DNA of 64,000 bases, from positions 3,906,015 through 3,970,014 of the forward strand of contig OX422204.1 of assembly GCA_949130485.1 (NCBI GenBank), in the 5' to 3' direction. Positions 7 to 60,859 of the stretch are shown piece by piece; the stretch's first letter is position 1, and every line of letters starts with the position of its first letter. Below the pieces are notes generated by a model, which was not told the DNA's origin, did not search any database, and worked only from the letters and a program-made list of their open reading frames with translations. The position numbers were made by a program, and so were the translations under genes. This DNA is from Agelas oroides. Lineage: Eukaryota; Porifera; Demospongiae; Agelasida; Agelasidae.

Positions 7-3000
7 TTTTCCTGTACACCTTCCTCTCCTGAGCTGTCCGATCACCAGAGGTTTCGCTACTACTTCCAGATGTTAGCCACAGAAGCTGACCTTGCAATAG
101 GCTTTTTCGGTATTATCAAGCAGTTTGGGTGGAAGAAGGTGGCCTTTATTGAACAAGATGAAAACTTGTTTACTGTGGTGAGCTGTATACTTTATTCAAC
201 TGACAGTACAACAAATCATGCAGTGTTGACAGGGCTGCTTTCTGATAAGGTACTAATGCATTCAAGAGATCTGTTGGCAGGCAATGCATTTCCTAATAAA
301 ATTGTCCTCTTTTTAAAAACACTGGAATCAGTGTGAGATAAATCTAGTAATGGCCTGGGGCATTGGCCAGTAGCATGACAGAGATGAAGAGCCTGCATAG
401 GTGAAAATACGTTGTGTATGCTTTGTGTGGCGTAGGAACTGTAACGGCCGTAGTGGCTTTGGCCGCTACACTTTTCAGCCAGCAAATTAATATTCATAAC
501 CCAAGTGACAGAAAGCTAGGTAGTCTCCTAGGAATGATCACGAAGGTAGTTTTTTGGGGGTAAATTGGACAGTTAAGAGTTATGCACCCTTAAGAATGGT
601 TTTATTTTGCAGTCTAAAGGTGCACACTTTTGAAAAATTCACCGCCAGTAGCGCGGCAAAATCATGTTAAAATTTTTCCACCAGGGTTCGCGTGGCACAG
701 CATGGCCTCTACACTTCCGATTTGAGTCCTACGCCTATGGTACAAATAATGGAAACAGTTAACTGCTTGGTATTGGTACCAGACTGTGGAGACAAAGTAT
801 AGTATAAAAGCTGGACAATGCATGCCTCTTATCTGGTACACATACACAAACTTGTATACACACAAAACATGCATACACTTGCATACACACACCCCTGCTC
901 ATACACACACCCCTGCTCATACATGCACCCCTACTCATATCCATCTACAGACCATGGATCGACTGAAAATTTTGCTGACAGAAGAAGGAATCAATTTTAC
1001 TGACAGTACATTCAACACTGAAGATGGCATCAGAGGATTGGGTGAACAACCCTTTGTGAGTACTTGTCAATTTTGCTCTCATCATCATCATCTCTTTCCC
1101 AGGGTTGTTTCATAGACAGAATGCATTATGGAATACTCCAGAATGAACATAGAAGAAGTGTTGATATGCAGCCAAGCAATATTGCATGTATATCAGAGAG
1201 TCGGTAGACAAGTTACATAACATCAATGTGTAAAACGACCGTCCACCAGGGAGGAACATAGCTATCACTAATACGATCGTTCTTCACAACCTGATATCTT
1301 TACAGCTTCCGTATATCTTCACCACATAATATATTATAACTGTGATGTTGGCAAGAGATGCATATGGTGATGTGAGTTTCAAACTAGTGGACTTACATAA
1401 CGAGCTAACAGTCATTCGGTCTGACTCAATAACTAGCTACTTCGTTTAGATGCTTCTTCCATTCACAATTCCACACAAAACCACCCCACCACCCCCCCCC
1501 CCCCCCCCCCCACACACACACATACAGGCTTTTGATCCTCAAGCAAGAGTATTTATTATTGCCTCATATGTTGGCTATGCGCAACAGCTCATGTGCAAGG
1601 TAATACAGCCAGACAGCTGTGTTGACAGCATTATTTGTATCATATGGGTCATTCCATACAAAATCAACACAAAAAAAAACTGACCCTCGACAAAACTTGG
1701 TTCTTACAGTGTCTGTTGAAGCATTCACCCGGTGTCAGTTTCAGCATTATATGTTGTATGGCTTCAGAGTTAAACCCAGTCAAAAACGTTGAAATTTCAG
1801 CTTACCCCTTCGTTTTTGGCTGGCTCTAACTCTGAAGCCATACAACATTTATAAAATAACTATGGGTGAATGTATCCATAGACACTATGTAACAGCCAAG
1901 TTTTGTCCAAATCTAGGGGTGAATGTATCCATAGACACTATGTAACAGCCAAGTTTTGTCCAAATCTAGGGCTTTTTTGTGTTGTTTGACATGGATTGAC
2001 CCAAATGTCAAACCCGGGCAATCTCAGTGAATTGCACAGGCATCCTGAAATGTAGCATTAATATGTGACCAACAGAAGAGGAAGAATGTAGCTAGTGCAT
2101 GATAATGAGGCAGTATGGCATGAAACTGAGTTATAGTTGTGCAATAATTATAGTTGTGCAAGAATTATAGGGGTGCAAGAAACACTAGTTGCCAGGTGCA
2201 TTAAGGTAGGACAACCTTGAATCGTGAATGGGACTGATTCTGCTCATGAATAATTAATGAGTGGGTAACCATAATGGCATGATTGAAATTCATTAAGCGG
2301 CTTGTTTACACTTTCCCGTGTCGGCAACTGGAATCAACAAGGGGGACGCATCCCTTTGATGTGGCCTGTGACCCTTTGTAGTGGTCTGGCGGCACTTTCA
2401 TGTGGCTGGGCGGATCTTTGAAGAAATCCTCCAACACATAAAAATAAAAAAATGTTTGAATGTGATGGTTGGCTATTTGTGTGTGCAAAACTTGCCTGAG
2501 TGGGCTTGAATGTTTGTGAGTGTGCTGGAAAGCTAGGCAGAGAGCCATCCTGGAAGACAATTCAGTTGTATAAGCTCAAAGAAGCAACAAATCTCACCAG
2601 AAATGCTGATTTATAGGCTTTCTAAAAATACTAATTTAACAGAAAAGTAAGCTTCTCAACTACACTCTGGTTTGAATTGTAAGCACTCCTTGAAGTTTAC
2701 TCCTTGAAGTTTACGTGTCATGCACACAAACGGAATGCAACTGAGGTGACCAAAATATGATTGAAGTAACCTAAACCTGTGAGGAGTGGAAACATCTACA
2801 AAACGTATGCAGAAAACTAATAGAGTCTCCTAGTGACAATTTAAGTATATTTGTAACCTTTCTTACAACGTATTTATTCAAATAAAACGCATGATCCAGT
2901 CTATAGCGCAAGAAATTCAATTCTGGGAATTTATGGGTGGATCCAACTTGTTTGTGGCAACAAAGGGCGGTCAAGGACAATTTCCAGGAAAAAGAGCTAT

Positions 3001-6000
3001 TCCATAAATGTGTGAACCAAAAATTTTCATGTGTTTCAATCCAATGCAATACATGATCTAATCTAACACAAGAAATTCAATTCCTGGAATTTATGGGTGG
3101 ATCTAACTTAACGCATGCCCACTCAAATTATTTAATTTGCGTGAGTTTTATTCGAATAAATACGGTACTACATACATGCAAGTATGGCAACTAACACAAA
3201 GACGATTTTGCTCACTCTATGAGCCTTCAATTAAACCCAGCTACATGCAATTCTGCTATAGTGAGTGATATTGATACAGTATTAAAATTTACACATTAGT
3301 CTAACACCTTTAGGGGTGTCCATATGCCTGTTTATACATAACACTCCAGGGGTCATACTTTCCCGTACAAGTTACATGTAGTAATAGTATGATTTCTTGT
3401 TCTGCCCTCATCCAATACATTAATAGCAGTCCCCATCTTCCACCCACCCCAGTGCAGCTTATGTATCCTGTGCAGTGGATGACTGTATGCCTGCCTGCCT
3501 TCTTTGTACAGGGTGTTGTGTTGTGGGATTTTTCAGTACTGCATGTGTTTACACTTTCTAAACATTATTGTGACATGAGCACTTACAATGACAGAATCAG
3601 GCAGAACTTAAATCAGTCTCAATAGGGCCTGTGTTTTTTCTTCAGAGAGATGTGGTTCATTGATTGTTCATGCACAGCAGGTGTCCACAAACCACAATTA
3701 TATGTGGTTGTATCACAAAAGAACTGCAGTATTAAGTACACCACACGGGGAGAAATGGTCCATTGATTGTTCATCCATTTTCGAACTTAAAATTTATGCT
3801 TTGCTGTGCACTTCCAACCCCCTCCCACTTCTGCCCTCCCCAAATGCACAGGCCTACAAATCTAAAATGACCTACCCTCGGTACATGTTTCTCACTTATG
3901 GCTGGTATGAAGACAGATGGTTTGCAGAGGAGGTGCAGGGGGATGAGTGCACTCCAGCACAGCGTGAGAGTGTTCTACAATACACACTATCTGTACTCCA
4001 GGATGAATTCCTTACAAACTTCAGCGCTATCACTGACACAGGCATTGTGAGTTAGGTGTAGTCTTCATGAGCATAGTTTCTCATGTTACATTGTGTTAGA
4101 TTCCATCACCAGGGCAATCAAAAAGAACGTAGGCCAGCAGCTGAATATGAAATAGGTAGTATAGTTCCATGGTAATCACCAAAACTTCCTGCTTTTGCCT
4201 TTGAGTTCATTGAAACCTCACCCAGTGACACACACTATTAGCCTCGTTCCCAGGCCCTCGCCCAGCTTCCTGTCGCTTGCAGTACGGTAAAGCGGGAGAG
4301 GGCCTGGTACATTTCCTCACGTGAGTGACGTCATGGACAGGGCCAATTATGCGAACGTGGGCGTCATGTAAACCACAAAAAACTTCGCTCGCATGCACGC
4401 ACTGGAGCACAACTATTCCGAGTCGAAAGTTGGTAGCACATGAAGGCGCTTTTATGTCGCTCTTCATGAGACAGTCGGGAGGACAGAGAGTTTTACCAAG
4501 CCAAGACAGTGAAGACACACAGCAACAATTTAGTCATCCTCGCCCACGTTCAATTAAAGTCTTTCTACCATCTTTCTACTCGTGACGTCACTCATGTGAG
4601 GAAATGTACCAGGCCCTCTCCCGCTTTACCGTACTGCAAGCGACGGGAAGCTAGGCGAGGGCCTGGGAACGAGGCTAACACACTATGTCTTTTACAGCCT
4701 AAGGTTTCAAAGAAACTAAGCTTGAAACTCTTTATATGCTACTTGTGTATGTATGTGTATGCAACACATACTGTAACTCACTCTACTATATTGCATGTAC
4801 AACCACACACTTTGTATCACAGAGAAAGGACTTGGTTTAGTGGAGATAGGTAGTGTGAATAGGAACTACCAGTTTACCTACCTACCTGGGGAGGAGGAGA
4901 ACTCATGGGCAGGTGGGTTATGATAAATGGAGAAATGCTTCCACTGTTTCATGTTTAGCTGTTACGATTGTCCACCATGCACATGGAAAGTTGGTAACAG
5001 CCACTATTTCTTCTCCTTATTGACTCCCAGGAGGTGTAATTCCATATGATGGTGTTCCCTTGGAGCAAGTGGTGTCAGTACATCTTTCCCTCACTGTCAT
5101 CTTCTCCATCCTGAATACTGCAGGCATCGCCTTTGCTGTGGCATGCCTCATATTCAACTGCATGTTCAGGAACAGGAAGTAGGTTGCTATAAAAGGTTTT
5201 TGATCCAATGTTATCACGACTATATGAAGGAGGCTACATAATAGGCAACTAGAATCACTTCAGTGCTAACTTGTGAGTTTCTTGTACTGTTGGTGCATAG
5301 GCATCACTGCCTGTATGGTCTTCACTCTGTTCTCCCTCAGGCTGATTCGTCTCAGCAGCTCCAACCTGAACTACTTGATAGGGTGTGGAGCAGTCATCGT
5401 GTACATGAGTATCTATTTCTTCATCATCCCTACCACTGACCCACGAGCTGTGGCTGCACTGTGCACTGTAAGTACATTATTGATATAGCCAATCTGAGTC
5501 CTTAGTTATCTTTTAATATCTCATTTGAAGTCATCAAACTTCATTTTGTTGATGTTACTTGGTGCAATGCATTTGGAGATAGGTTCTGCACTAGTTGAAA
5601 AGGTGGAACAAGAGGAGGTGAGTGGATGTCAAGTGAACAGCACATGACAGCTGTTGTAGTAGGCTGTAGAAAAAGCCTTATTCAGTGCTGGGTGTCCCAT
5701 TTCTCTCTGCTTTTCTACAAATGAGTTTAGAAATACTCCCCTTTTTTCCACTTGGGTTGTAGTTGCTTCACTGTGCCTTATAATATCAAACACAGCCTTA
5801 TTATGATTGCCTTTTCATATAATAAGAATTGAGCAGAATTTGCATCAATTAAGCCCTTCATACACTGCACTTTTTGCCATTTAGGCTTTCACAAATTTTT
5901 TCCATGTCATCTTAGTGGTGGCATGTTTCAAGTGAAGTGTTTAGAGTTGAGGCTGTGGTATGTTGATGTTTAGAGCATCTGGGATGGATCCATAGACTTG

Positions 6001-6202: not shown

Positions 6203-8007
6203 CACAGGTCACTCCATGGCTGAATGCACTAGGATACTCCCTGTGCTATGGCACCATCCTTGCCAAGATGACCAGAGTGTACTTCATCTTCAACAACCCC
6301 AAGCTTAAAAAGTTTGACTATGTAAGTTGACTTCCATTGTAATAACCAACCATGTATTTAGTTTAGTATACTAATGTTACACTTGGCAATTGCTTATCAC
6401 CATAACATTAATTTTGTTCTATGTACATGTACTGGTAGCTATGTACTGAATTGTGCATTTTGTTATGCTTTTCTTGTCTGTGGATACCATCTCTACACCC
6501 ATACACAATGCATACATATACAGCCCTTACAGGACAGGTGCCTAGCTATAGGAGTACTGGTGTTGGTGTTGGTAGATGTGATAATTCTCCTGGTGTATAC
6601 CATTGTGGAGGGGGTCCAGGGAAATCTAACAGCCATCCGAGTTGGCAACAGAGAATACCTGATGAATGTGGAAGGGGTAGGCTGATACATACATGACCTC
6701 CAACTATTCATCAGTTTTACTTCAGTACACTTCCAGTGGCATAGCCCGGATTCTGAAAATACCTGGGCATAACATGGGCACAACAAATTTTGTGAGAGTT
6801 TCTGCGTGAAGTACAGGAGTAATCTAGATGTACTGGTATCTAGAAGGGTCTGGGGGCATGCTCCCTCCTTGAATTCTAGGGCCCTGGAATAGCTACACCA
6901 CTGCTGCTCACTGAATCCTTCTTATCATTCGTGACCTCCATCTATCTGTTCTGTACACTCTTCAGTCTCTTCTCTCTGAATTCTACTTATGCACTTCACA
7001 ATATGTGCGCCTATTTCTCCTCCCAGGAGCGGGAAATTGTCACTCTCTATTTCACATATATCTGCATCTCCACAACCAGGAGCATTATCTTGGGTGTCTT
7101 GTATGGCTACAAGGGGGTACTGCAGGTCATTGCTCTTGTTTTTGCCTTAAAAACTCGCAAGGTGATGGTCAAGGGCCTTGATGATTCCAAGTATATTGCA
7201 GCAGCCACCTATGTGGCCAGCATTGTACTCATGGTCATTATCATCACTAGCTACTCACTGAGGGGTTTTGTCAATGTGTTTGCTACTCTCTTCTGTACTG
7301 GGTTCTTCATTGGTAACACCATCGTCCTGGGACTTGTCTTTGTTCCCAAGGTAGGGACTTTATCATGTGGTGATTCTGAAGTGATAAAACTTGGTTGTAT
7401 ATCACAGTACAGATGCACATGTACTCACACATTTGATTAGCATTGGGCATCCACAATACCAAGGCACTCAGATAGCCCTCTTTGAAGAAAGCTAAGGCAA
7501 AGCCGGGAATGAGGGTAACCCATCCATGCAGGCTCATACAAAATATAGACCAAATGCATGCATGTTACAACTCCCAATGATTCCAACAACTTCATCAAAA
7601 ACTCCACAGCAACAGACTTAGCTGTTGATGGTGGTGGTGAAATGTACGCGTAAGGCATACTGCACTTAGCTTCAATGGAACTAGAAACTTTGTCAACAAC
7701 TCAACATACTATGATGCAATTTTTCATCATGTACGTACTTACTAGCCAGGAGCGTAACTGAAACTTTCCAGCATGTTAGTTTTATCAACTGTGACCATTC
7801 CCTTCACAGATGGTGGCACTCTACAGTGACCCCCAGGGCAACACGGTCTTTGACAAGGCAGATGCAGCTACTATCAGTACCACTCACAACAATGTAGTGA
7901 ATATGAGTGATGACTCAGTGGATAAAGATAAAACAATAGAGAATCTTAGAAGGAGGATTACAGAACTGGAGTCTGCTTTATCACAGAACCAAGCACCTGA
8001 GAATTGA
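7..8007 (+). CDS. Receptor gene A: GABA-B-like class C GPCR, 5' partial, three exons missing
   Basis: Seen: eleven exons at 7-177, 951-1055, 1528-1599, 3852-4046, 4823-4912, 5031-5178, 5341-5467, 6208-6321, 6524-6676, 7027-7350 and 7810-8007, each with AG/GT borders matching those of genes B and C. The signal-peptide exon and the next one lie left of the window. Exons 7-4046 encode part of the ligand-binding-type ectodomain (GWYEDRWF motif), 5031-7350 the seven helices (NLNYL, YGYK, DSKYI, FVPK), and the last exon a tail with a heptad-like helix ([11 protein letters not shown]). Family role: G-protein-coupled receptor at the plasma membrane. Odd: the three exons present at 14747-15411 in gene B are absent between 4046 and 4823. 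Normal splicing across the gap meets a stop at 4838-4840; an AG two bases further in would keep the frame. It may be a recent pseudogene or encode a shortened ectodomain. Very close to gene B elsewhere. Confidence 0.85.
850..950 (+). repeat. CA-rich tract before a gene A splice acceptor
   Basis: CA-rich sequence with imperfect repeats of ACACACCCCTGCTCAT runs up to the acceptor of the exon at 951. It takes the place of a normal pyrimidine tract. Frames through it are low complexity, not coding. Confidence 0.6.
1487..1522. repeat. C homopolymer and CA repeat at a splice acceptor
   Basis: A run of about 20 C followed by CACACACACA ends a few bases before the acceptor of exon 1528-1599. The same intron position holds a long TG/CA repeat in gene B and a minisatellite in gene C. 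Confidence 0.7.
1645..2003. mobile_element. Palindromic short transposon with a duplicated right arm
   Basis: The outer ends GGGTCATTCCATACAAAATC (left) and a near inverse at 1974-2003 pair. Inside, 1751-1771 pairs with 1829-1849. A 52-bp segment (GTGAATGTATCC... from about 1867) is repeated in tandem from about 1919, doubling part of the right arm. It lies in the 2.2-kb intron of gene A between exons 1528-1599 and 3852-4046. No clear target duplication was found. Confidence 0.55.
2868..3166. mobile_element. Inverted-repeat element, TTTATTCGAATAAAACGC family, copy 1
   Basis: It starts CGTATTTATTCAAATAAAACG and ends with the inverse TTTTATTCGAATAAATACGG. Internal phrases (AAGAAATTCAATTC, TTTATGGGTGGATC, GGACAATTTCCAGGAAAAAG) recur in the copies near 16.4-17.5 kb and 32.4-33.7 kb. 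Non-coding and intronic in gene A. Confidence 0.6.
4239..4677. mobile_element. MITE with about 95-bp terminal inverted repeats and 9-bp target duplication
   Basis: It begins TAGCCTCGTTCCCAGG and ends with the inverse. The arms pair over about 95 bases with a few mismatches. ACACACTAT flanks both sides (4230-4238 and 4678-4686), a clean 9-bp target duplication, which is typical of Mutator-like elements. It sits where gene A has lost three exons. Related ends occur near 29272, 30872, 37389 and 43043. Confidence 0.75.
6047..6200. repeat. CA microsatellite before a gene A acceptor
   Basis: About 150 bases of (CA)n with CG and TG interruptions end within 8 bp of the acceptor of exon 6208-6321. 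Gene C has a GT tract at the same acceptor. His-Thr and Cys-Val frames here are artefacts. Confidence 0.9.
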
Positions 8008-8300: not shown

Positions 8301-8377
8301 GAGATCCAGCCAGGATTTGAACCTGGGTCCTCTGAAGTCCGGCCAGATGCTCTTACCAACTGAGACACTGGAGCTCT
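8301..8377 (-). mobile_element. tRNA-derived SINE head
   Basis: On the minus strand it has a tRNA shape: acceptor GCTCCAG with CTGGATC, a box A-like GTCTCAGTTGGTAAGAGC, and a T arm CCAGG-TTCAAAT-CCTGG. The anticodon loop lacks the usual T before the anticodon. The tail GGATCTCAATGTTCTTTTTTT matches another copy near 12.54 kb. This is read as a SINE rather than a working tRNA gene. Confidence 0.6.
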
Positions 8378-13400: not shown

Positions 13401-16400
13401 GTGCAGCCACAGCCTGGGGGTTAGTGGTAGGGATGATGAAGAAATAGATGTCCATGTACAAAATGACTGCTCCACATCCTATTAAGTAGTTTAGGTTGTA
13501 GCTGCTGAGACGAATCAGCCTGAGGAGAATAAAGATCATGCATGTGGACAGTTATGTACCAACAAAATTAACATTAATATGATTCTTAATATTCCCATTT
13601 GGCAGTCACAATAGATGGATCAAAAACCTTTTATAGCAACATACTTCCTGTTTCTGAACATGCAGTTGAATATGAGGCATGCCACAGCAAAGGCGATGCC
13701 TGCAGTATTCAGGATGGAGAAGATGACAGTGAGGGAAAGATGTACTGACACCACGTCTTCCGAGGGAACACCATCATATGGAATTTCACCTCCTGGAAGT
13801 CAACAAAGAAGAGTGAGTGAGAGTTACCAACTTCCCGTACATACACAAGGTAGACAACCATAACACCTAAACATGAAACAGTGGAAGTGTTTCTCCCATC
13901 CCTCATAACCCACCTGGCCATGAGTTCTCCTCCTCCCCAGGTAGGTAGGTAAACTGGTAGTTCCTATTCACACTACCTATTACCACTAATCCAAGTCCTT
14001 TCTCTGTGATACAAAGTGTGTATGGTAGTAGAGTAAGATATAGTATATGTTGCATAAAACCAGGTCACCAAGTGCGTTATACCAGCACTAGCTGCTCTAT
14101 ATTTGGTGCAAACTATACATAATCAGGGCTGGAACAGCTCATCTCATGATTACTTGCAGGCTGATATATCACAGTAGCTGGTCATGTACCACAAATTTGG
14201 CCATTTGCAGCATACATTTTCTGCAAAATATCACCAGCTGATTCCCATTCATACTGACAATAATTACTCACTGCTCACTTACACAAGTTTAAATCTACGA
14301 GCAGAATTGGCTGCCAAACTCCAAACGAAGCCATTGTGTAGCCATTGTTTCTAAGCAAGATTTGGTGCTCTTGCAACATTAAGGAAGCCCCTGGATTCCA
14401 ACTTTTTATTTTACATTGATCAACTATACCTGTCACTCATATAAATATCTGCTTTTTAGCTCCTTCACTTCACCTTTAATCAGGTAATGTAGTACATTGT
14501 AGGTTAATGATTCTTGGAAGCTCAACCGTTCTTGAAAATTTCAATGAACACTCAATGCTGAAATGTGAGGCTGTATTCCTAAGATTTTGGTACAAACATG
14601 TTACTAATCAGGGCTTGGACACTGGAGCTCAGCTTTTATGGCCATGGCTTACACTTAGCAACAATTGCATTCTGTAGCTTTTTCGTAATTTCAAATTAGA
14701 TCTTATTGGTTAGAAGTCATGTGATTATAAATGGAATTATGCCTACCCTGATATCTGTATTGGTAAACCTGCAATTTTTTTGCTTCTCGTATTCCATCAA
14801 TGGAGTTAAACGACACCAAACCCTGCAAAGGTTAAGGAGATTGTGTGATAATTATGACTTGATCTTTGAAGCACATTGGAAAGTTATTCAGCAGTTACAC
14901 CACAGAGAGAGACAAACAAGCATCCAAACTTCCTCTCCCTCCCCTCTTCACTCTCTCTACCCTACTCCCTCTTTTTTCCATCCTTCCCCTCTCTTCCTCC
15001 TCTTCTCCTCTCTTTCCCTCCCACCCCCTTCACTCACAGTGATTCCATTAAAGTTCATTGCCTGCACATGTCTGAATGTCACCTCCAATAGTGCACTGTT
15101 ATTGTAGGAGAAACGATCCAGGGGAAATGTGCCATTGCCCTGGAGTCCAGCAGCTTCCCACACCTTGGCATTCAGAGTTGAGTTCTCTTCAAGTTCTAAA
15201 GAACAACAATGTACTATGATCATGTCTTTTTCTGACTGACTGACGAAAACAGACACACAACCTTACCAGTGATGGTCCTATTGAGTGCAAAGGCTAGGGT
15301 CCACGTGGCATCATAGCAGTGCTGTGCATACTGATCTATTTCATTCTTGTCCAAATTGAGTGAGGAAGAGTTTCTGTGAGCTGTGTAAGCAGCTTGGTAC
15401 TCAAAGCCATTCTGGAAGGAGGAAAAGCAGGGCTAGAGAAAAAGTCCAATAAGATTTCTAATGGTTGACTGAAGGAGGAAAAAGAGAGCTACAGAGATTT
15501 CTATATAGTAACAGGTCTATTGCTTGACTGGAGCACAAGTATCCTACAAACACAAGACTATATCTTAGGAGTTATGAAGCCCTAGGCTATTCAAGACATG
15601 ACTATAGCCAATTAATTAACTCTCACTGGGTGAGGAGGTTTCTTTGAACTCCAAGGCAAAGCCAAGGAGTTAATAAAACCTCACTGAGCTGGCATTTAGA
15701 CTTGATTAGCATGGACCCTTATCTATTTCATATTCAGCTGCTGGCCTGGTTGCCATGGTTATGGAAAGTCTAACACACTGGCAGATGAGAAATTACACTC
15801 ATAACAAAACTGACTCACAATGTCTGTGTCGGTGATAACACTTAGATTTGTAAGGAATTCATCCTGGAGTACAGCTAGTGTGTATGGTATAACACTCTCG
15901 CGCTGTGCTGGAGTACACTCATCCCCCTGCACCTCCTCTGCAAACCACCTGTCTTCATACCAGCCATAAGTAAGGAACATGTAGCGAGGGTAGGTCATGT
16001 TGTATTTGTAGGCCTGGGCATTTGGGGAGGAGGTGGAAGGAGTGCAGTGTAGCAGAAATTAAGTGTGGAAATGTGAACAATGAAGGGCCAATCAATGAAC
16101 AGCTTCCTGCAAAAAGGCAGGCCTACATAGATATAGATATTGTGGGGAGTCATGGGACACATTTCCTGTGAACATCAGGAAAATTGGAGGGGAGAAGAAA
16201 AATCATACTCAAACTAATATCACTAAGTAACAGTCTGGTTGATAGCATGCACATAGACCTCTTATTGTATTTATCTTGCATTACACTTTCATGGAGGACA
16301 ACAGAGTCATCAAATGAACCAAGTGTTTCCCAGTCCAAACAGGCTGTTAGCTGCTGCACACATTGATATCGCTCATGATGTGGCAAATTTTGTTAATCCA

Positions 16401-25320: not shown

Positions 25321-27152
25321 CTATGTAAGTGAACCATAAGTGTATACAGGAATCATCTTTCTTGGATATTCATTGAATGGTTTCTCATCCTCTGTACATG
25401 AGGGATTAGCAGCTATGTGTTCTTCTCTGATGGGTAACACTGGTTCGTACTCCCCTTGATTTATCAGCCGATCTGGCAGGAAGTCTGCAGTATCAGACTC
25501 AGCATCCACATCTGTGTCAGCTTGACTTGTGAGTACAGTTGCCAGTGCACATCTTTTCAAAGTTCTGTATTTCCTTTTCAAACTTTGAGAGATGCGTGTT
25601 TTCTTTGTTAACTTACAACAGAGATAGAATATTAGTACCATGTGTGGAACACCTAATAGCAGTGTTGATGCAAGGATAAGGTATGCTAAGGAGTCTGGTA
25701 CAGGGCTTATTGCTGCAAACGTTAATATCTCAAGCAAAAACAGAATGGCAATATCTACATTGTTCATAGAGTTTAACTTGTATGGTCTTGTGATAGCATG
25801 GAAACAAACAGCACATAAAAAAATCACACCTTGTAGTTCTGATGTGTGGGAGGATAAACGATGGTGATTTAGGAATAAGAGCATTGTCAGTATCCTGAGG
25901 ATGAGGAATGATGCAGAAACCATTCTAAAGCCACGAGTACCATTGGTTCCATCCTTGTACTATCCCTGAAATGATTCCACATAATATGTGCAGAGCATGC
26001 CACTATGAATAATATAATTAACCACACTGCATCTCGCCTTAAGGTTAACATCAATAAATGTTGCCAATACACAAATAGCTATAACCATAAATGTGGTGAA
26101 CTCCTGTGTATGGCATTCCACTGTTGGGTCATAATACAAAACACACTTTTGTGTAAAATAATTATTAGGATAAATGTGAAAGTAGTGCAACAGGGTGAAA
26201 GATACAAATAAGATTTTGGAGAAAGAAAGAAGCAGAAATGTTGTGAAAACATTGATTATTGATACCTTGCAGTCCCATCTTCTTCTGAAGTGAACAAAAT
26301 GTCTGAATTAAATGGCTTCCATAGCCAAATAACTGGCTTGAAGTTGTTGTCATGAAGCTTATACATACATAAGTGGTCAAAATGAGAAAGATGGGATAAA
26401 ATGCCACTAGATACTCAAGTGCAAATGCATGAACAGTCTTGATGTTGCTGCTTACACAAAATGGTATAACAGAACGAAAGAATTCTAAGCTTCATATTCC
26501 ACACACTACTAGTAGCACTTGCAGTGCCACAGAAAATCCTGTTACTTCAATGTACATGTGCAAGGGTACATTCAGTCATATTGTGTACACTACAATCTGA
26601 CTCATGAACACAAGGGCACTCAGTGGGGAGGAGGTGGCTCTGACGTGGAAGGTCACTACCAGAAAGTACATCACAGTCATTGGGAACAGTTCCAGGAAAT
26701 AGTACAAGACCCATCCATAACCATGTCCCCAGCACTTACTGTATTCTAGAGTGTATGAGTATAGTGCAATGCCATAGCCATCTTGACACTTCTCACACAG
26801 TGAGCCTTCTCGATTTAGTGGCCCACACATGAACTCATTAACTAGTGACACATTGGTTGGCAACTGAATATAGGAGACATAGTCAACATGGGTAGTGTTA
26901 CTGTAGTGTGCAATGTATGGACAAGCTTCGATCATATTCAGTAGCCCCAGTTGTACTGTTGTAGGTCATACAGTAGCCAAAGTGAAGTAATGGAACATCT
27001 GAACCACAGTAGACTTTTGAACCATACTTGTAGCAAGAACACTTGGTGATAGATGTGTTGTCAGGGATGAACCAGGTAGGACAGGTATCTTGCTGGGTGG
27101 CAGTCTGCTCTGTGGAACTAAACAGAAGGATGAGCAACAGCATTAGTGCCAT
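25321..27152 (-). pseudogene. Cysteine-rich multi-pass membrane protein, copy 1, disrupted
   Basis: Full-length copy of the family. It has a signal peptide (MALMLLLILLFSS), a Cys-rich ectodomain (CPTWFIPD, CSCYKYGSK, CGPLNREGSLCEKCQDGYG), about eight hydrophobic helices, a YKDGTNGTRGFRM motif, and a cytoplasmic tail ending VYTYGSLT. Lesions against copy 4: 4 extra bases near 26930, two nonsense changes (about 26568 and 26490), a one-base loss near 26355, a patch of foreign sequence at 26007-26058, and a TAG at about 25962 just before YKDGT. The last 200 codons (25321-25923) stay open. Function unknown; membrane location inferred. Confidence 0.75.
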
Positions 27153-27179
27153 GACTAAAATGTATGACTACCAACAGTC

Positions 27180-27500
27180 CAACACACTATAGCTACGTAG
27201 CAACGTTGCTTTGCAATATCTAACACTATGAATAACATAATTAACCACACTGCATCTCTCCCTTTAAGGTTAACATCATTCATGGCTTGTTACTGTATTA
27301 AAGTGAGCATTCGTTGCATTTGTGGCATTCATTTCAATGATGCTGTTATTAGACTGACCATATATGGATCGTGGTGTTTTGTATTGTTACGTCAAACACA
27401 CACTGTTGGAATGTTGGAATTGATTAGCTGTAGTACTACTGTAATCTCTGGCTTGAACTGCACTTACCAGTTCCAGCCAAAATGCTACGTTTAAACTCTG
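27180..27500. repeat. Shared 5' flank of the membrane-protein family (unit 1)
   Basis: This upstream sequence (CACTATGAATAA, AACATCATTCATGG, ACACACTGTTGGAA) recurs at 37200-37380, 39110-39440 and 40725-40920, and inverted at 41181-41280. It shows that genes and flanks were duplicated together. It may hold the promoters. Confidence 0.65.
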
Positions 27501-27730
27501 ATGAATTAATAAGTAAGATGTATGGGTAAATGCAGTCATAGTACTGATGATGAAGAACCATTTTGGCCTAGCTAGCAGTATAGTCCAGGATTGTTGCTAT
27601 CCAGGTGTTTTCATAGCTATGGCAACAATCAATCTCAGTCATGTTGTAATTTATCATTGATGTTCAACAACCTACTGACTTGTAAGATATGCATGCAGAA
27701 GTACACAACGATATTAACAAGATTTCTTTC

Positions 27731-31475: not shown

Positions 31476-31613
31476 GTAGCACAGTGGCAGTGCCATAGCT
31501 CAGTGGCAGAGCACTGGCGGCTCAAGCCAGGTGTCCTGGGTTCAACTCCCGGTGGCTGCGGGCCTTTTTCACTTTCCTCTATTTTCGCCTCATAACATCT
31601 AAACTCCTTTATT
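31476..31613 (+). mobile_element. tRNA-derived SINE (GVEPRTPGL family)
   Basis: CCATAGCTCAGTGGCAGAGC (box A) and GGGTTCAACTCCC (box B) form a tRNA-like head with a duplicated start, followed by the tail TTTTTCACTTTCCTC..CATAACATCTAAACTCC. Its minus-strand translation contains GVEPRTPGL and SRQCSATEL, the usual false-protein sign of such SINEs. Confidence 0.7.
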
Positions 31614-33753: not shown

Positions 33754-34843
33754 CTAGAAGTAAGAAGATGAAACAGGGTAACTGCTATTCCCATCCATAA
33801 TAGTAAATAAGTGATGCTTAAAGCTTACCTTGTTCAACCTCCCTTTGGAGGGATCTCTCCACGTTTTGAGTCGGTGGTTGTTGACAACCTGCTTTCGAAT
33901 TAGACCATCAGAACCCCGTAGACGAAAGCGGCCTTTACCCAGATCTTCAATGATCTCATATGGCCCACCTTGAAATCGTACATCCAGCTTTCCCCCTTTC
34001 CTCCCATCGTTTCGTTTGTTCTCAACAAGAACTTTGTCTTCGACTTTTAGATGGGTGTTGGTGTTATGCTTGGCATCATATTGGCGTTTCTGATTATCCT
34101 GTGCCTTCTTGATATTGGCACGAGCTTTGTCATGCACCTGCTTCCTGATGTCAAGGAGCTGCTGGATCTTTTCTTCAAACGATTCCATGCTTTCGTCAGA
34201 GCTATCGGAACTGTTCACTTTAGTAGCTAGCTCTATAGGGAGACATGCTTCACGACCATACATGAGAAAAAATGGAGTGAACTTGCTGGATGCGTGTCGA
34301 CTTGTGCGATAAGCAAAAAGGATCTCATCAAGAAAAGCTGTCCCAATCATCCTGATGCTCATTGACCATCCTCTGGAGCTGAGCTTTGAGTGTTTGATTG
34401 AATCGCTCATCAAGGCCGTTTGCTTGCGGGTGGTATGCACTTGTAACATTGTGCCGAAAGCCAGTAAGTTCTTGAAGGCGGTTAACCACTTGGTTGCAGA
34501 ATTCTCGCCCCTGATCTGAGATGATGTCGGCTGGGCAACCATGTCGGAGAAAGGTGCGGTATAGAAACTCAGCAACGTTAATGGCTTCCTTGGTCGGGAA
34601 TGGTTCGGCTTCTGACCATTTTGAAAAGTAATCAGTGAGTGTGACACAATATCGATTCCCTTGGCTACTGAGGGGAAGTTCAATGATGTCAATGCCAACT
34701 TTCTTCCAGGTGTCCGACACAGGAATGGGATGTAGGGTCGGAGCAGGTCGATCGAACTTTCGCTTGGTGCGCTGGCAGGCGTCGCAGTGCTTTACCTGTG
34801 TGATGGAGAAGTATTCAGACCAAAATGTCCCCAATTGACCCAT
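33754..34843 (-). pseudogene. Ty3/gypsy-type retrotransposon integrase fragment, frameshifted
   Basis: Two overlapping minus-strand frames together cover the end of a zinc-binding region (CDACQRTK), the catalytic core with its D (GIDIIELP), D (ISDQGREF) and E (DERFNQTLK) positions, and a C-terminal region (GPYEIIEDLGKGRFRL) that binds DNA in this family. The frame breaks near 34330 in a T run by one base. No reverse transcriptase, gag or long terminal repeats were seen nearby, so this is a relic. A domesticated integrase gene is less likely because of the frameshift. Confidence 0.8.
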
Positions 34844-36555: not shown

Positions 36556-37175
36556 TCAACCTAAAAACTTAGACTGAAAGCAATGCAGAGGTCTGTATGC
36601 ATGCATAGCTAGATATTCAAGAATACTGTGTACACTACAATCTGCCTCGTGAACACAAGGGCACTCAGTGGGAAGGAGGTGGCTCTTGTGTGGAAGATCA
36701 CTACCAGAAAGTACATTACAATGTTTGGAAACAGTCAGGAGATAGTACAAGACCCATCCATAACCATGTCCCCAGCGCTTACTGCATTCCAGAGTGTAAG
36801 AGTATAGTGCAATGCCATAGCTGTCTTTACACTTCGCACACAGTATAGACCCACATGAACTCATTAACTAGCGACACATTGTTTGGCAACTGAATAGAAA
36901 GATGTGGTCAACATAGGTAGTGTGCAATGTATGGACAAGCTCCATATTCAGTAGCCCCAGTTGTACTGTTATAGGTCATACAGAAACCAAAATGAAGTAA
37001 TGGAACATCTGAACCACAGTATAGACTTTTTGAACCATACTTGTGGCAAGAGCATCTGGGGAGTGATAGATGTGTTGTCAGGGATGAACCAGGTAGGACA
37101 GATATCTTGTTGGGTGGCAGTCTGCTCTGTGAAACTAAACAGAAGGCTGAGCAAGAAAGAGAACAGTCTTGTCAT
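36556..37175 (-). pseudogene. Cysteine-rich multi-pass membrane protein, copy 3, N-terminal fragment
   Basis: It carries the signal peptide, the ectodomain start (CPTWFIPDNTSIT) and the KCKDSYGIALYSYTLECSK region followed by the first membrane segment, but is broken by frameshifts. It has the same 4-base excess as copy 4 after the ectodomain start (near 37058-37066) without the compensating upstream base loss. Everything beyond the first helices is missing. Confidence 0.7.
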
Positions 37176-37382
37176 GACTATGTACGACTACCAAGCACAT
37201 TTATAGTCCAACACACTAGCTAGCAACGTTGCTTTGCAATATCTAACACCATGAATAATATACTTAACCACACTGCATCTCCCCCCTTTGCTGTTAACAT
37301 CATTCATGGATTTGTTATTGAAAGTGGCATTCGTTGCATTTGTGACATTCAATGATGCTGTTATTTTAGACCGACCATATAT

Positions 37383-37775
37383 AAGGGTAGCCTCGTTCCC
37401 AGGCTCTCCCCTCTCCCCGACGAAAAATAAAAACGGAGGGAGAGAGCCTGGGACCGATTCGCACGTGACATCGCGGCAGGACGACTTTGCACTATTAAAC
37501 CATTAACTCTTTACCGACCGTAGCGCTTTATTGCAATATTACGCGGATGACCGTAAAAATCGCGGACGAAGCGGTCAAGACGATGTGTTGTGTACTCCGT
37601 TTTATATCTCCAGCTGTAAGCGAGCTACAAACTTCTAGTAAAATAAAAACGGAGGGAGAGAGCCTGGGACCGATTCGCACGTGACATCGCGGCAGGACGA
37701 CTTTGCACTATTAAACCATTAAATAACCTGAAACGTCACTCATGTGAAGACCGCGAAGGAGCCGCGAAATACTCT
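37383..37775. repeat. TAGCCTCGTTCCCAGG-type insert with an identical 82-bp direct repeat
   Basis: The sequence at 37424-37505 (AAAATAAAAACGGAGGG... to CCATTAA) recurs unchanged at 37640-37721. Between the copies lies a stretch rich in CG (CCGACCGTAGCGC). The block adjoins the truncated 3' end of copy 4 of the membrane-protein family. Confidence 0.75.
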
Positions 37776-37804
37776 CAGCTCAGGAGTTTGTTACTACAAC
37801 TCGT

Positions 37805-39094
37805 TTATTGTTGTGTAGCTATGTTGGAGCTTTCAAATGTGGTTGTGAGTTTATTTTGTACGCCAGAGTGTAGCGCTAGCCAACTAAAGTCTTTCAGAGC
37901 ATGCCACCTCCGAGATCCACAGCTTGAAACGCACTTTCTGAACAGTCTTGTTGGGTACAAAATGAGGAGACTTGTTGGAAAAACAATAAATATTGCCAAT
38001 ACACAAATAGCTATAACCATAAATGTGGTGAACTCCTGTGTATGGCATTCCACTGTTGGGTCATAAAACAAAACACACTTTTTTCTAATGTAATTATTAG
38101 GGTAAATGTGAAAGTAGTGCAACAGGGTAAAGGATACAAACAAGATTTTGGAGAAAGAAAGAAGCAGAAATGTTGTGAAAGCATTGATTATTGATGCGTT
38201 GGAGTCCCACCTTCTTCTGATGTGAACAAAATGTCTGTGAAATGGCTTCCATAGCCAAACAACTGGCCTGAAGTTGTTGTCATGAAGTTTTATACATACA
38301 TAGGTGATTAAAATGAGAAAGATGGGATAAAATGCCACTAGATACTCAAGTGCAAGAGCATGAACAGTCTTGATGTTGCTGCTTACACAAAATGGCGGAA
38401 TAACAGAACGAAAGAAGTCTAAGCTCCATATTCCACACAGTACTAGCAGTGCCACATATGAAAATCCTGTTACTTCATTCTCAATGTACATGTGGAAGGG
38501 TACATTTAGTCGTATTGTGTACACTACAATCTGACTCATGAACACAAGAGCACTCAGTGGGGAGGAGGTTGCTCTGATGTGGAAGATCACTACCAGAAAG
38601 TACATTACAGTTGTTGGGAACAGTTCCAGGAAATAATACAAGACCCATCCATAACCATGTCCCCAGCACTTACTGCATTCCAGAGTGTATGAGTATAGTG
38701 CAATGCCATAGCCATCTTGACACTTCTCACACAGTGAGCCTTCTCGATTTAGTGGCCCACACATGAACTCATTAACTAGTGACACATTGCTTGGCAACTG
38801 GATATAGGAGACATAGTCAACATGGGTAGTGTTACTGTAGTGTGCAATGTATGGACAAGCTCCATATTCAGTAGCCCCAGTTGTACTGTTGTAGGTCATA
38901 CAGTAGCCAAAGCGAAGTAATGGAACATCTGAACCACAGTAGACTTTTGAACCATACTTGTAGCAAGAGCATCTGGGGAGTGATAGATGTGTTGTCAGGG
39001 ATGAACCAGGTAGGACAGGCATCTTGTTGGGTGGCGTCTGCTCTGTAAAACTAAACAGAAGGATGAGCAAGAAAGAGAACAACATTACTGCCAT
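37805..39094 (-). CDS. Cysteine-rich multi-pass membrane protein, copy 4, 429-codon open frame
   Basis: The frame runs from a signal peptide (LFSFLLILLFSF) through a Cys-rich ectodomain with N-glycosylation sites (NST, NTT, NVS), the CGPLNREGSLCEKCQDGYG motif, and about seven hydrophobic helices, to LFRKCVSSCGSRRWHALK. It then leaves the family sequence and ends after about 20 unrelated residues at a repeat block. The YKDGT motif, last helices and tail of copy 1 are absent, so it is 3' truncated. About 23 codons after the signal peptide are read in a different frame from copy 1, between a 1-base loss and a 4-base gain that cancel. It could make a shortened membrane protein; function unknown. 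Confidence 0.65.
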   Translation of the reverse strand: MAVMLFSFLLILLFSFTEQTPPNKMPVLPGSSLTTHLSLPRCSCYKYGSKVYCGSDVPLLRFGYCMTYNSTTGATEYGACPYIAHYSNTTHVDYVSYIQLPSNVSLVNEFMCGPLNREGSLCEKCQDGYGIALYSYTLECSKCWGHGYGWVLYYFLELFPTTVMYFLVVIFHIRATSSPLSALVFMSQIVVYTIRLNVPFHMYIENEVTGFSYVALLVLCGIWSLDFFRSVIPPFCVSSNIKTVHALALEYLVAFYPIFLILITYVCIKLHDNNFRPVVWLWKPFHRHFVHIRRRWDSNASIINAFTTFLLLSFSKILFVSFTLLHYFHIYPNNYIRKKCVLFYDPTVECHTQEFTTFMVIAICVLAIFIVFPTSLLILYPTRLFRKCVSSCGSRRWHALKDFSWLALHSGVQNKLTTTFESSNIATQQ

Positions 39095-39710
39095 GACTAA
39101 AATATATGACTACCAAGCACACTTAGTCTAACACACTATAGCTGCAAGACAGCAACGTTGCTTTGCAATATCTAACACTATGAATAATATAATTAACCGC
39201 ACTGCATCTCGCCTTAAGGTTAACATCATTCATGGCTTGTTATTGTGCATTCGTTGCATTCATTTCAATGATGTTGTTATTAGACTGACCATATATGGGT
39301 CATGGTGTTTTGTATTGTTACGTCAAACACACACTGTTGGAAAGTTGGAATTGAATAGCTGTAGTATTACGGTAATCTCCGGCTTGATCTGCACTTACCA
39401 GTTCCACCCAAAATGCTATGTTTAAACTCTGAACTTCTGATGAATTAATAAGTAAAATGTATGGGTAAATGCAGTCATAGTACTGATGATGAAGAATCAA
39501 TTCAGCCTAGCTAGCAGTAAGTCCAGGATTGTTGCATCCAGGTGTTTTCATAGCTATGGCAACCATCAACCTCAGTCATGTTGTAATTTATCATTAGACT
39601 TGAAGTATAAAGATATGCATGCAGAAGTACACAACGATATTAACACGAGTTCTTTCACTATGTTGCGGTTGACAAACTTTTAACTTGTGTAAATAATCAG
39701 AAAAAATAAC

Positions 39711-40655
39711 TTAGTTAATAGAACCATAAGTGTACACAGGAGTCAGTTTTCTTTTCATTGGCTTTGCTGTTTGTTTTCAGCAGCTGTGTGTTCTTCTGTG
39801 GTGGGTAGCGGTGGTTCATACTTCCCTGGGTTCATCAGTTGGTCTGGCAGAGAGTCAGTATCAGACTCAGCTAGGCCTTGATGGATTATCCTTTTTTTGT
39901 TTTACCCTATTATTCTATTCTTGTATTCTCAAAATTCGTACCTATTATTCTTCTCATAGCTACTACCTAATATTCTTTTCATCACGCCTATTATTCCCAG
40001 TCTAAATACAATACATCGTGCACCAAATAGAGTCTTGTTATGTAGATAGCCCAACTCAATAACAAAAACTGTACAAATACTCATTTTAAATAATGCCTAC
40101 TACATCACTACACGTGATTGGAGTGGAAACGTGCATGCGCACAAGCCTCATCCACAGGCTTCAATGTTTCATTTGGTGGCAGCTGCCAAATGATGCCTGT
40201 GGATGAGGCTTGATGTACACCTAGACTCAACACCAATTGCTGTTAGGTGTAGCCTACAAAACTAGGACCTATTATTCTGAATTTTTTACCTATTATTCTC
40301 CAATAATTCTCGATTCTTTTTGCTACCTATTATTCTCAAAATGATGCTAGCATAATCCATCAAGGCCTAGACTCAGCCTCCACGTCTGCTTCAGCCAGTA
40401 TCAGATCAGCCTCTACGTCTGCTTCAGCTTGACTTGTGTGTCTGTATTTCCTTTTCAGTTCGCACTGAGTGATGCCTATGGTAGATATAGAATATCAATA
40501 CTATGTGTGGAACGAGTAACCACAGTGTTGATCCAAGAATAAGGTTTGCCAAGTCTACTGGTGGAGGGTTGCTCTTGTGTGGAAGATCACTACCAGAAAG
40601 TACATTACAGTGTTTGGAAACAGTCAGGAAATAGTACAAGACCCATCAATAACCA
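39711..40655 (-). pseudogene. Cysteine-rich multi-pass membrane protein, copy 5, tail and fragments
   Basis: The C-terminal tail coding region (ending VYTYGSIN, stop at 39711) is split by a 498-bp transposon at 39872. Beyond it come the rest of the tail, part of the last helix region, and a piece from the middle of the ectodomain/first helix (40555-40655) joined by deletion. It cannot encode a complete protein. Confidence 0.65.
39872..40369. mobile_element. hAT-like MITE with 8-bp target duplication
   Basis: It starts TAGGCCTTGATGGATTAT and ends with its inverse (18 perfect bases). GACTCAGC flanks both sides (39864-39871 and 40370-40377). Copy 2 of the host gene near 28023 shows the uninterrupted site. 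The middle has a second inverted repeat (AAGCCTCATCCACAGGC with its inverse). No transposase frame; 8-bp duplications are typical of hAT elements. Confidence 0.8.
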
Positions 40656-41055
40656 AATGCAGAATCCATAATCCAGTCCATAGTCCAGTCCATAGTCCAG
40701 AGTCCAGGTTTTGTACCTACCCCTTGGTCCAACACACTAGCTAGCAACTTTGAACACTATGCATAATATAATTAACCACACTGTATCTTTCCTTTAAGGT
40801 TAACATCATTCATGGGTTGTTATTGAATGTGGGAATTCATTGTATTCATGATTCAATGTGCCGTTATTAGATTGGGGTTGATATATTTTGACTTGTTTCA
40901 TCAGACACACACTGTGCAATGCCATAACCCTCTTGAAGGGTGCAGCAGGTGAACATTTGCTCCAGCATCATCTTTTTACACTACATACATTTTAGTCATG
41001 GCACTAATGTTGAATGCCCATCCCTTCATCTTTTTACACTACAGTTGCACTCTAA

Positions 41056-42014: not shown

Positions 42015-42660
42015 CTTATATATTCTGTGTTTCATAAAGAAGAGCTGGGTGGTGACCAGGGGTAACAATGAGGGGTCAAGTGCCGGTTCCCATGACTACA
42101 GAGACATTTCTCCTGAGCTTCTGTACATTGTATTTAGATACTATAGGTGTGGTGCATTCAGCATTATTGCATTAGTTGTGTTTTGTAACTTTGTGTTATG
42201 TAATTTTGTCATTGTATACCTGTTGTACATGTGCAGGTGAACGCGTGTTGTGTGTATAAATAACCCTCCCCATTTGTACAGTTTTAGTGTGTAGTAATGA
42301 TGACGTGTGATGAAGTAAGACTTGACTATATATGTGGAGTGTAGGTTGCTTGGATATAGGGCCACACTGATCGAGCCCACAGGTATTGAATGCATAAACC
42401 TTTGAAAGGTCATAACACAAGATATACATCATGTTTGTTCCCAGCTAGGTATCAACCCCTGACCACTCCAAAGCAGAATCTGCTGTTTAAAGTTCTGTTC
42501 AGTCTAAATGACTCTGGAGAGAACAGTTATTTGCACTTTCTTTCATACGCTTTCTCAAGTGTGCAGTACCAGAAGAAATGTGTAAAAAAACAACAACCAA
42601 GATGTTAGCAATCAAACTTGTGAGCAACACTACATAATACATAACTACCTAGCTAATAGG

Positions 42661-60859
<18,199 letters not shown>

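Follow-up and report, generated by a model that had tools for sequence, protein, structure and literature searches.

The window analysed here, a 64,000-nt stretch of the Agelas oroides genome (C22:3906015-3970014; the genome searched comprises 259 Mb in 141 contigs), carries a receptor gene, gene A, that lacks three consecutive exons found in its neighbour, gene B. An initial annotation read gene A as either a young pseudogene or a new receptor isoform, and the locus therefore raises the question of which of these it is. The explanation that we favour, with a probability of about three in four, is that gene A belongs to a tandem cluster of GABA-B-type class C receptors and was damaged recently.

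Gene models were obtained by homology mapping of the gene B exons onto 214 kb around the window, which revealed eight clustered genes of a 16-exon, metabotropic GABA-receptor-like type; G1 to G4 lie on the plus strand before gene A, followed by A itself (plus strand) and then by B, C and G8 on the minus strand. Exon 16 was extended to the first in-frame stop, and two kinds of border were placed by hand: where exon 4 ends in G1, C and G8, and where exon 10 begins in G1, G3, C and G8. Seven of the eight genes have an uninterrupted frame between ATG and stop, and all their introns have AG/GT borders; the exception is gene A, which pairs with G4 in three trees (support 95, 99 and 100). Exon 4 occurs in two forms: it is 105 nt long in five of the genes, whereas G1 (C22:3797417 region), C (3960463) and G8 (3983692) have a divergent 96-nt version (72-73% over the matched part). 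A second, partial copy of exon 15 with 84-88% identity to that of B is present just 3' of the full one in G1 and G8.

A domain scan, run on gene B only, identified an ANF_receptor ligand-binding domain (PF01094, E 8.5e-41, residues 88-465) and a 7tm_3 transmembrane domain (PF00003, E 8.1e-43). Gene A keeps the part of the former that is encoded by exons 1-6, without exons 7-9, and its 7tm_3 region (exons 11-16) is stop-free. The solved structures nearest to gene B are GABA-B subunits 2 and 1 (E 7e-64 to 6e-57; for example 6uo8_B at 7e-64 and 6w2x_A at 1.8e-59), which are closer than mGlu5, the first mGlu match (E 4.5e-17). Human GABA-B subunits 1 and 2 have the same two-lobe domain and 7TM region as gene B, although identity is low and gene A would be missing the final part of its two-lobe domain. 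Birth-and-death evolution is a known concept for chemosensory GPCR clusters, in which there are also tandem copies with one recently inactivated, as would have happened here by partial deletion; we found no difference of kind between such clusters and this one. For the sponge Ephydatia muelleri, the available part of a published account predicts more than 120 metabotropic GABA receptors, including a cluster of more than 50, and describes gene clusters with identical intron-exon structure (PMC7385117); the cluster itself is thus of a known kind. The Ephydatia expansion likewise consists of tandem GABA-B-type class C receptors, and a 16-exon plan is common to all eight genes here, but that part of the account (PMC7385117) describes no exon-deleted members such as gene A.

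The remainder of the window holds a second locally repeated gene family (26052-27730 and 36615-40915; 89% identity over 1.7 kb between the copies at 26052 and 37984) and, at 33754-34843 on the minus strand, open frames that by eye resemble the integrase part of a Ty3-type retroelement. ARAGORN calls a tRNA-Ser at 8301-8374 (minus strand) and a tRNA-Glu at 31488-31561 (plus strand); the former, just past gene A, may at a guess be a tRNA-derived SINE and not a gene.

Table 1. Features of gene A and of its paralogues. Coordinates are window positions unless preceded by C22 or marked as contig positions.
Feature	Coordinates	Strand	Basis
Gene A exons 1 and 2, upstream of window	C22:3898593-3898934; 3905803-3905940	+	homology to B
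Gene A exon 3	7..177	+	homology to B exon 3, AG/GT borders
Gene A exon 4	951..1055	+	homology to B
Gene A exon 5	1528..1599	+	homology to B
Gene A exon 6, ends in phase 0, last before gap	3852..4046	+	homology to B
Donor GTGAGT of exon 6	4047..4052	+	site scoring
Gene A fused intron 6/9, 776 bp, without exons 7-9	4047..4822	+	homology mapping
Left copy of 9-bp target duplication, ACACACTAT	4230..4238	.	sequence
MITE, 439 bp, terminal inverted repeats of ~95 bp	4239..4677	.	repeat comparison
Hypothetical MITE-derived exon, 67 nt (or 4266-4320, 55 nt), keeps frame	4254..4320	+	site scoring
Right copy of 9-bp target duplication, ACACACTAT	4678..4686	.	sequence
Deletion junction, AT (end of intron-6 homology and start of intron-9 homology)	4736..4737	.	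alignment to G4
Gene A exon 10, acceptor CAG then AG	4823..4912	+	homology to B
Gene A exon 11	5031..5178	+	homology to B
Gene A exon 12	5341..5467	+	homology to B
Gene A exon 13	6208..6321	+	homology to B
Gene A exon 14	6524..6676	+	homology to B
Gene A exon 15	7027..7350	+	homology to B
Gene A exon 16 with stop	7810..8007	+	homology to B
Gene B, intact paralogue, 16 exons, 854 aa	10420..23235	-	homology, open frame, domain scan
Gene B exons 7-9, without counterpart in A	14747..15411	-	homology search
Gene B E7, E8, E9 (145+158+76 = 379 nt)	15411-15267; 15195-15038; 14822-14747	-	
Gene C, intact paralogue, 16 exons	42655..60859, ends approximate (contig 3948669-3966873)	-	homology, open frame
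Partial extra exon 15 copies, G1 (L027) and G8 (L036)	C22:3808034-3808142; 3974329-3974385		identity to B

Mapping with the gene B exons gave no match to E7, E8 or E9 in gene A, in agreement with the initial annotation, and the length it gave for the missing exons, 379 bases and not a multiple of three, is that of gene B (1 mod 3). The coding length of exons 7-9 is 376 nt in the six other paralogues, again 1 mod 3, as B alone has 3 extra nt in E9. Within the 214 kb the loss is limited to gene A; the seven other genes keep E7, E8 and E9 and have all 16 exons open, so that the absence in A is derived. Relocation of the exons within the cluster was rejected, as all matches to E7, E8 or E9 there fall within the seven other genes, each of them complete, and no orphan copy was found; matches outside the cluster have at most 80% identity over parts, or are simple-sequence-like at 70-81%. 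Gene A thus carries a disabling lesion, with 376-379 nt of coding sequence absent and the frame shifted. A search of its remaining 13 exons (2,172 coding nt) for stops, frameshifts and altered AG/GT borders detected no second lesion.

The breakpoint was originally placed near 4229, next to a MITE, and our first alignments also hinted at that position, but an extended alignment to G4 overturned it: homology with G4 intron 6 runs past the MITE to 4737. Positions 4687-4737 of gene A align to G4 intron 6 with a score of 41, and 4736-4822 to G4 intron 9 with a score of 104, neither of which was reached in any of 1000 shuffles, whereas the control alignment of 4687-4740 to G4 intron 9 was at chance level (821/1000 shuffles). 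These alignments define a single deletion of ~1.33 kb, as measured on G4, with a 2-bp overlap; the 2-bp AT replaced a 5-bp ATGCT microhomology that had been considered for the junction. The clear G4 result was obtained with the segment lengthened to 4740 and a milder mismatch penalty; a stricter local alignment of the shorter segment 4687-4722 was mixed and did not single out G4. The score of this shorter segment against intron 6 was reached, out of 300 shuffles, by 1 for G1, 1 for G2, 4 for B, 7 for C and 0 for G8, with weak results for G3 (67) and G4 (40), and for C intron 9 scored above intron 6 (3/300). The loss of exons 7-9 is a real, derived and simple deletion in this assembly.

The element in the fused intron has terminal inverted repeats, an intact target duplication (ACACACTAT, 9/9) and multiple copies, 91-95% identical to it, as expected of a MITE, and from its 9-bp duplication we take it to be Mutator-like by convention. 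An exact 9-bp duplication flanks four of the seven other copies, and the other three, which share flanks, match at 8/9 bp. The common flanks of the copies at C2:22168600, 22220012 and 21004122 (L002-L004) suggest duplication of a larger segment. In gene A the MITE sits within the intron-6 side, 58 bp before the deletion junction, with its target duplication intact; the gene was therefore not cut at the edge of the element, whose position indicates that the insertion is separate from the deletion. The MITE differs from the majority of the seven other copies at 18 of 439 positions (4.1%), compared with less than ~1% for the deletion if gene A is unconstrained (see below), which suggests that it is older and the deletion came later.

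The consequences for the reading frame follow largely as first described. Joining 4046 to 4823 gives RKDLV and then TAG at 4838-4840, the sixth codon of exon 10, because exon 6 closes in phase 0 while the first two bases of exon 10 belong to a split codon; no complete receptor frame is therefore available with the ancestral splice sites. Use of the second AG, with exon 10 starting at 4825, does give one open frame of 724 aa, as had been proposed. The CAGAG acceptor is, however, present in six of the eight genes, including five intact paralogues, and so predates the deletion and is not a response to it. As in NAGNAG-type tandem acceptor splicing, two AGs lie close together at one acceptor, but in gene A their spacing is 2 nt, so that the frame changes, and the second site is GAG. 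The acceptors of the eight genes (n=117) comprise 103 CAG, 14 TAG and no GAG. With a matrix built from these genes' own sites, the ancestral acceptor of gene A scores 7.80 (20/117 real acceptors score no higher) and the shifted GAG -3.55, compared with -0.39 for the lowest real acceptor. In moss, GAG acceptors in close tandem are very rarely used, with 14 of 536 well-supported GAG-containing motifs alternative in the available part of that study (PMC3095350). Of the two original readings, the pseudogene is thus the better supported, given the stop in exon 10 and the absence of a second lesion; a new isoform through the 2-base acceptor shift is weakly supported.

Other routes could also keep the frame: the count came to 3 donors, 6 acceptors with 4825 among them, 31 cryptic exons and 24 skips. 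Exon skipping was rejected, as all 24 frame-keeping contiguous skips remove exons through at least E12 and so cost transmembrane parts. A 4-nt donor slip to 4051 scores 0.96, against a real-donor minimum of 1.86. Among the routes scored, only one group of cryptic exons, within the MITE, has both ends in the range of real sites, with an acceptor at 6.44 or 6.61 (13/117 real sites no higher) and a donor at 4.03 (5/117 no higher); given the number of routes, it is unsurprising that one should fit. By these scores the 2-base acceptor shift is the least likely of the rescues named, and the MITE exon the better-scoring frame keeper.

The deleted segment corresponds to residues ~343-469 of gene B, the last part of its ANF_receptor match, and aligns with the stretch of GABA-B1 around QEAPLAYDAIW; the glutamate of QEAPLAYDA is, we assume, E466 of human GB1. 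Ligand contacts reported for human GB1 in the available part of a structural account include a lobe-1 residue, E466, and a lobe-2 residue, W395 (PMC12499500). The suggestion that gene A lacks part of lobe 2 was therefore imprecise, as the lost end of the ligand-binding domain includes lobe-1 sequence; the alignment indicates that lobe 1 is affected and probably the last part of lobe 2 as well. In exon 7 of gene B (window 15331-15345) the region of the QEAPLA glutamate, by the GB1 YDAIW motif, reads QYAQHC, and the ligand of B may for this reason be other than GABA.

Selection on gene A was estimated with a two-ratio codon model written for this analysis, gene conversion among the paralogues being outside the model. 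Omega on the whole A branch was 0.415, compared with 0.480 for the background (P 0.54 for the difference), and omega = 1 was rejected (P 1.4e-4). Exons 1-6 gave 0.351, with 1 rejected (P 3.3e-4), and exons 10-16 gave 0.564, with 1 not rejected (P 0.13); the background values were 0.438 upstream and 0.512 downstream. Private nonsynonymous and synonymous changes in gene A number 27:12 (downstream 16:6), the highest ratio of the eight genes although not significantly different from the other seven pooled (128:92, Fisher P 0.22). Such an omega fits a branch mostly lived before the deletion, which would show it whether or not gene A is now a pseudogene, and it also fits a gene still in use. A comparison of the A and G4 introns gives a ratio of 84 gap events to 371 substitutions. 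If indels occur at 0.1-0.2 per substitution, the 2,172 coding nt should have gained 3.0-4.7 lesions by 1% neutral divergence (probability of none 0.052-0.009) and no fewer than 8.9 by 3% (probability of none 1.4e-4). If gene A is unconstrained, the absence of a second lesion makes the exon loss younger than ~1%; this absence and the branch omega together point to either a recent deletion or continued use of gene A.

The latter alternative, in which gene A is a working receptor without the end of its Venus flytrap and the frame is kept by the MITE exon, the GAG at 4825 or the donor at 4051, appears unlikely. It would account for 13 lesion-free exons and a branch omega of 0.42, every rescue product is open from start to stop (743-747 aa for the MITE exon, 724 aa for the GAG, 726 aa for the donor slip), and there are class C receptors that have no Venus flytrap, such as GPR158 in the available part of PMC8611064. 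Both the GAG acceptor and the +4 donor nevertheless score under every real site, and the MITE exon, whose two ends are within that range, has a donor that is the fifth lowest of 117 and is drawn from many frame-keeping combinations; exons 10-16 alone do not reject omega = 1, and losing 126 residues inside a two-lobe domain should unfold it. We regard as quite improbable the specific case in which MITE sequence, spliced as a new exon from 4254 or 4266 to 4320, replaces the three ligand-binding-domain exons with the frame kept, giving a receptor whose mode is altered or constitutive.

The stop may alternatively be retained and the functional product be a secreted 346-aa ligand-binding decoy (exons 1-6 plus RKDLV), with exons 10-16 dead. 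The contrast in omega between the two parts of gene A and its top-ranking private ratio are in keeping with this, but the background omega trends alike, the private ratio is no different from that of the other genes pooled, and the fragment would be without the last third of the ligand-binding domain. A stop far upstream of the last exon junction is, moreover, the setting for decay of the transcript, and we consider a decoy very improbable. Near-identical clusters are error-prone in assembly, and exons 7-9 could be present in the animal's DNA but missing through an artefact or a collapsed haplotype. Against this, the 214 kb contain zero N, the intron-6/intron-9 join is clean and lies within otherwise A-specific sequence, E7, E8 and E9 have no orphan copy in the cluster, and the flanks in A occur once (window 4000-5000 minus the MITE matched only itself among the 40 of 1,793 candidates that were scored); an assembly error is accordingly improbable in our estimation.

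Gene A is probably, on the evidence of its sequence, a recent null copy in an expanding family. In the sequence of events that we favour, a double-strand break followed by end joining would have produced the ~1.33 kb deletion that joined intron 6 to intron 9 and took exons 7-9, with the MITE an independent and apparently older insertion in what became the fused intron. The spliceosome would then link exon 6 directly to exon 10 through the ancestral CAG, shifting the frame so that TAG is reached after five codons, and the mRNA would be degraded by nonsense-mediated decay or yield at most the secreted 346-aa fragment. The deletion allele would be of recent origin, and an intact allele may still be segregating alongside it. 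Two points weigh against a null copy: independent signs of decay are absent, with an omega that also suits a gene in use, and frame-keeping routes exist, one group of them with sites in the real range.

As a recent null copy, gene A would be a sharply defined example of an early stage of gene loss among tandem receptor genes, with a breakpoint at base level, without secondary decay and beside seven intact neighbours; it would also illustrate how readily one can see an apparent rescue of the frame in a recent deletion. Should the MITE-derived exon really keep the frame, the locus would instead be an example of a transposon repairing the deletion of receptor exons.
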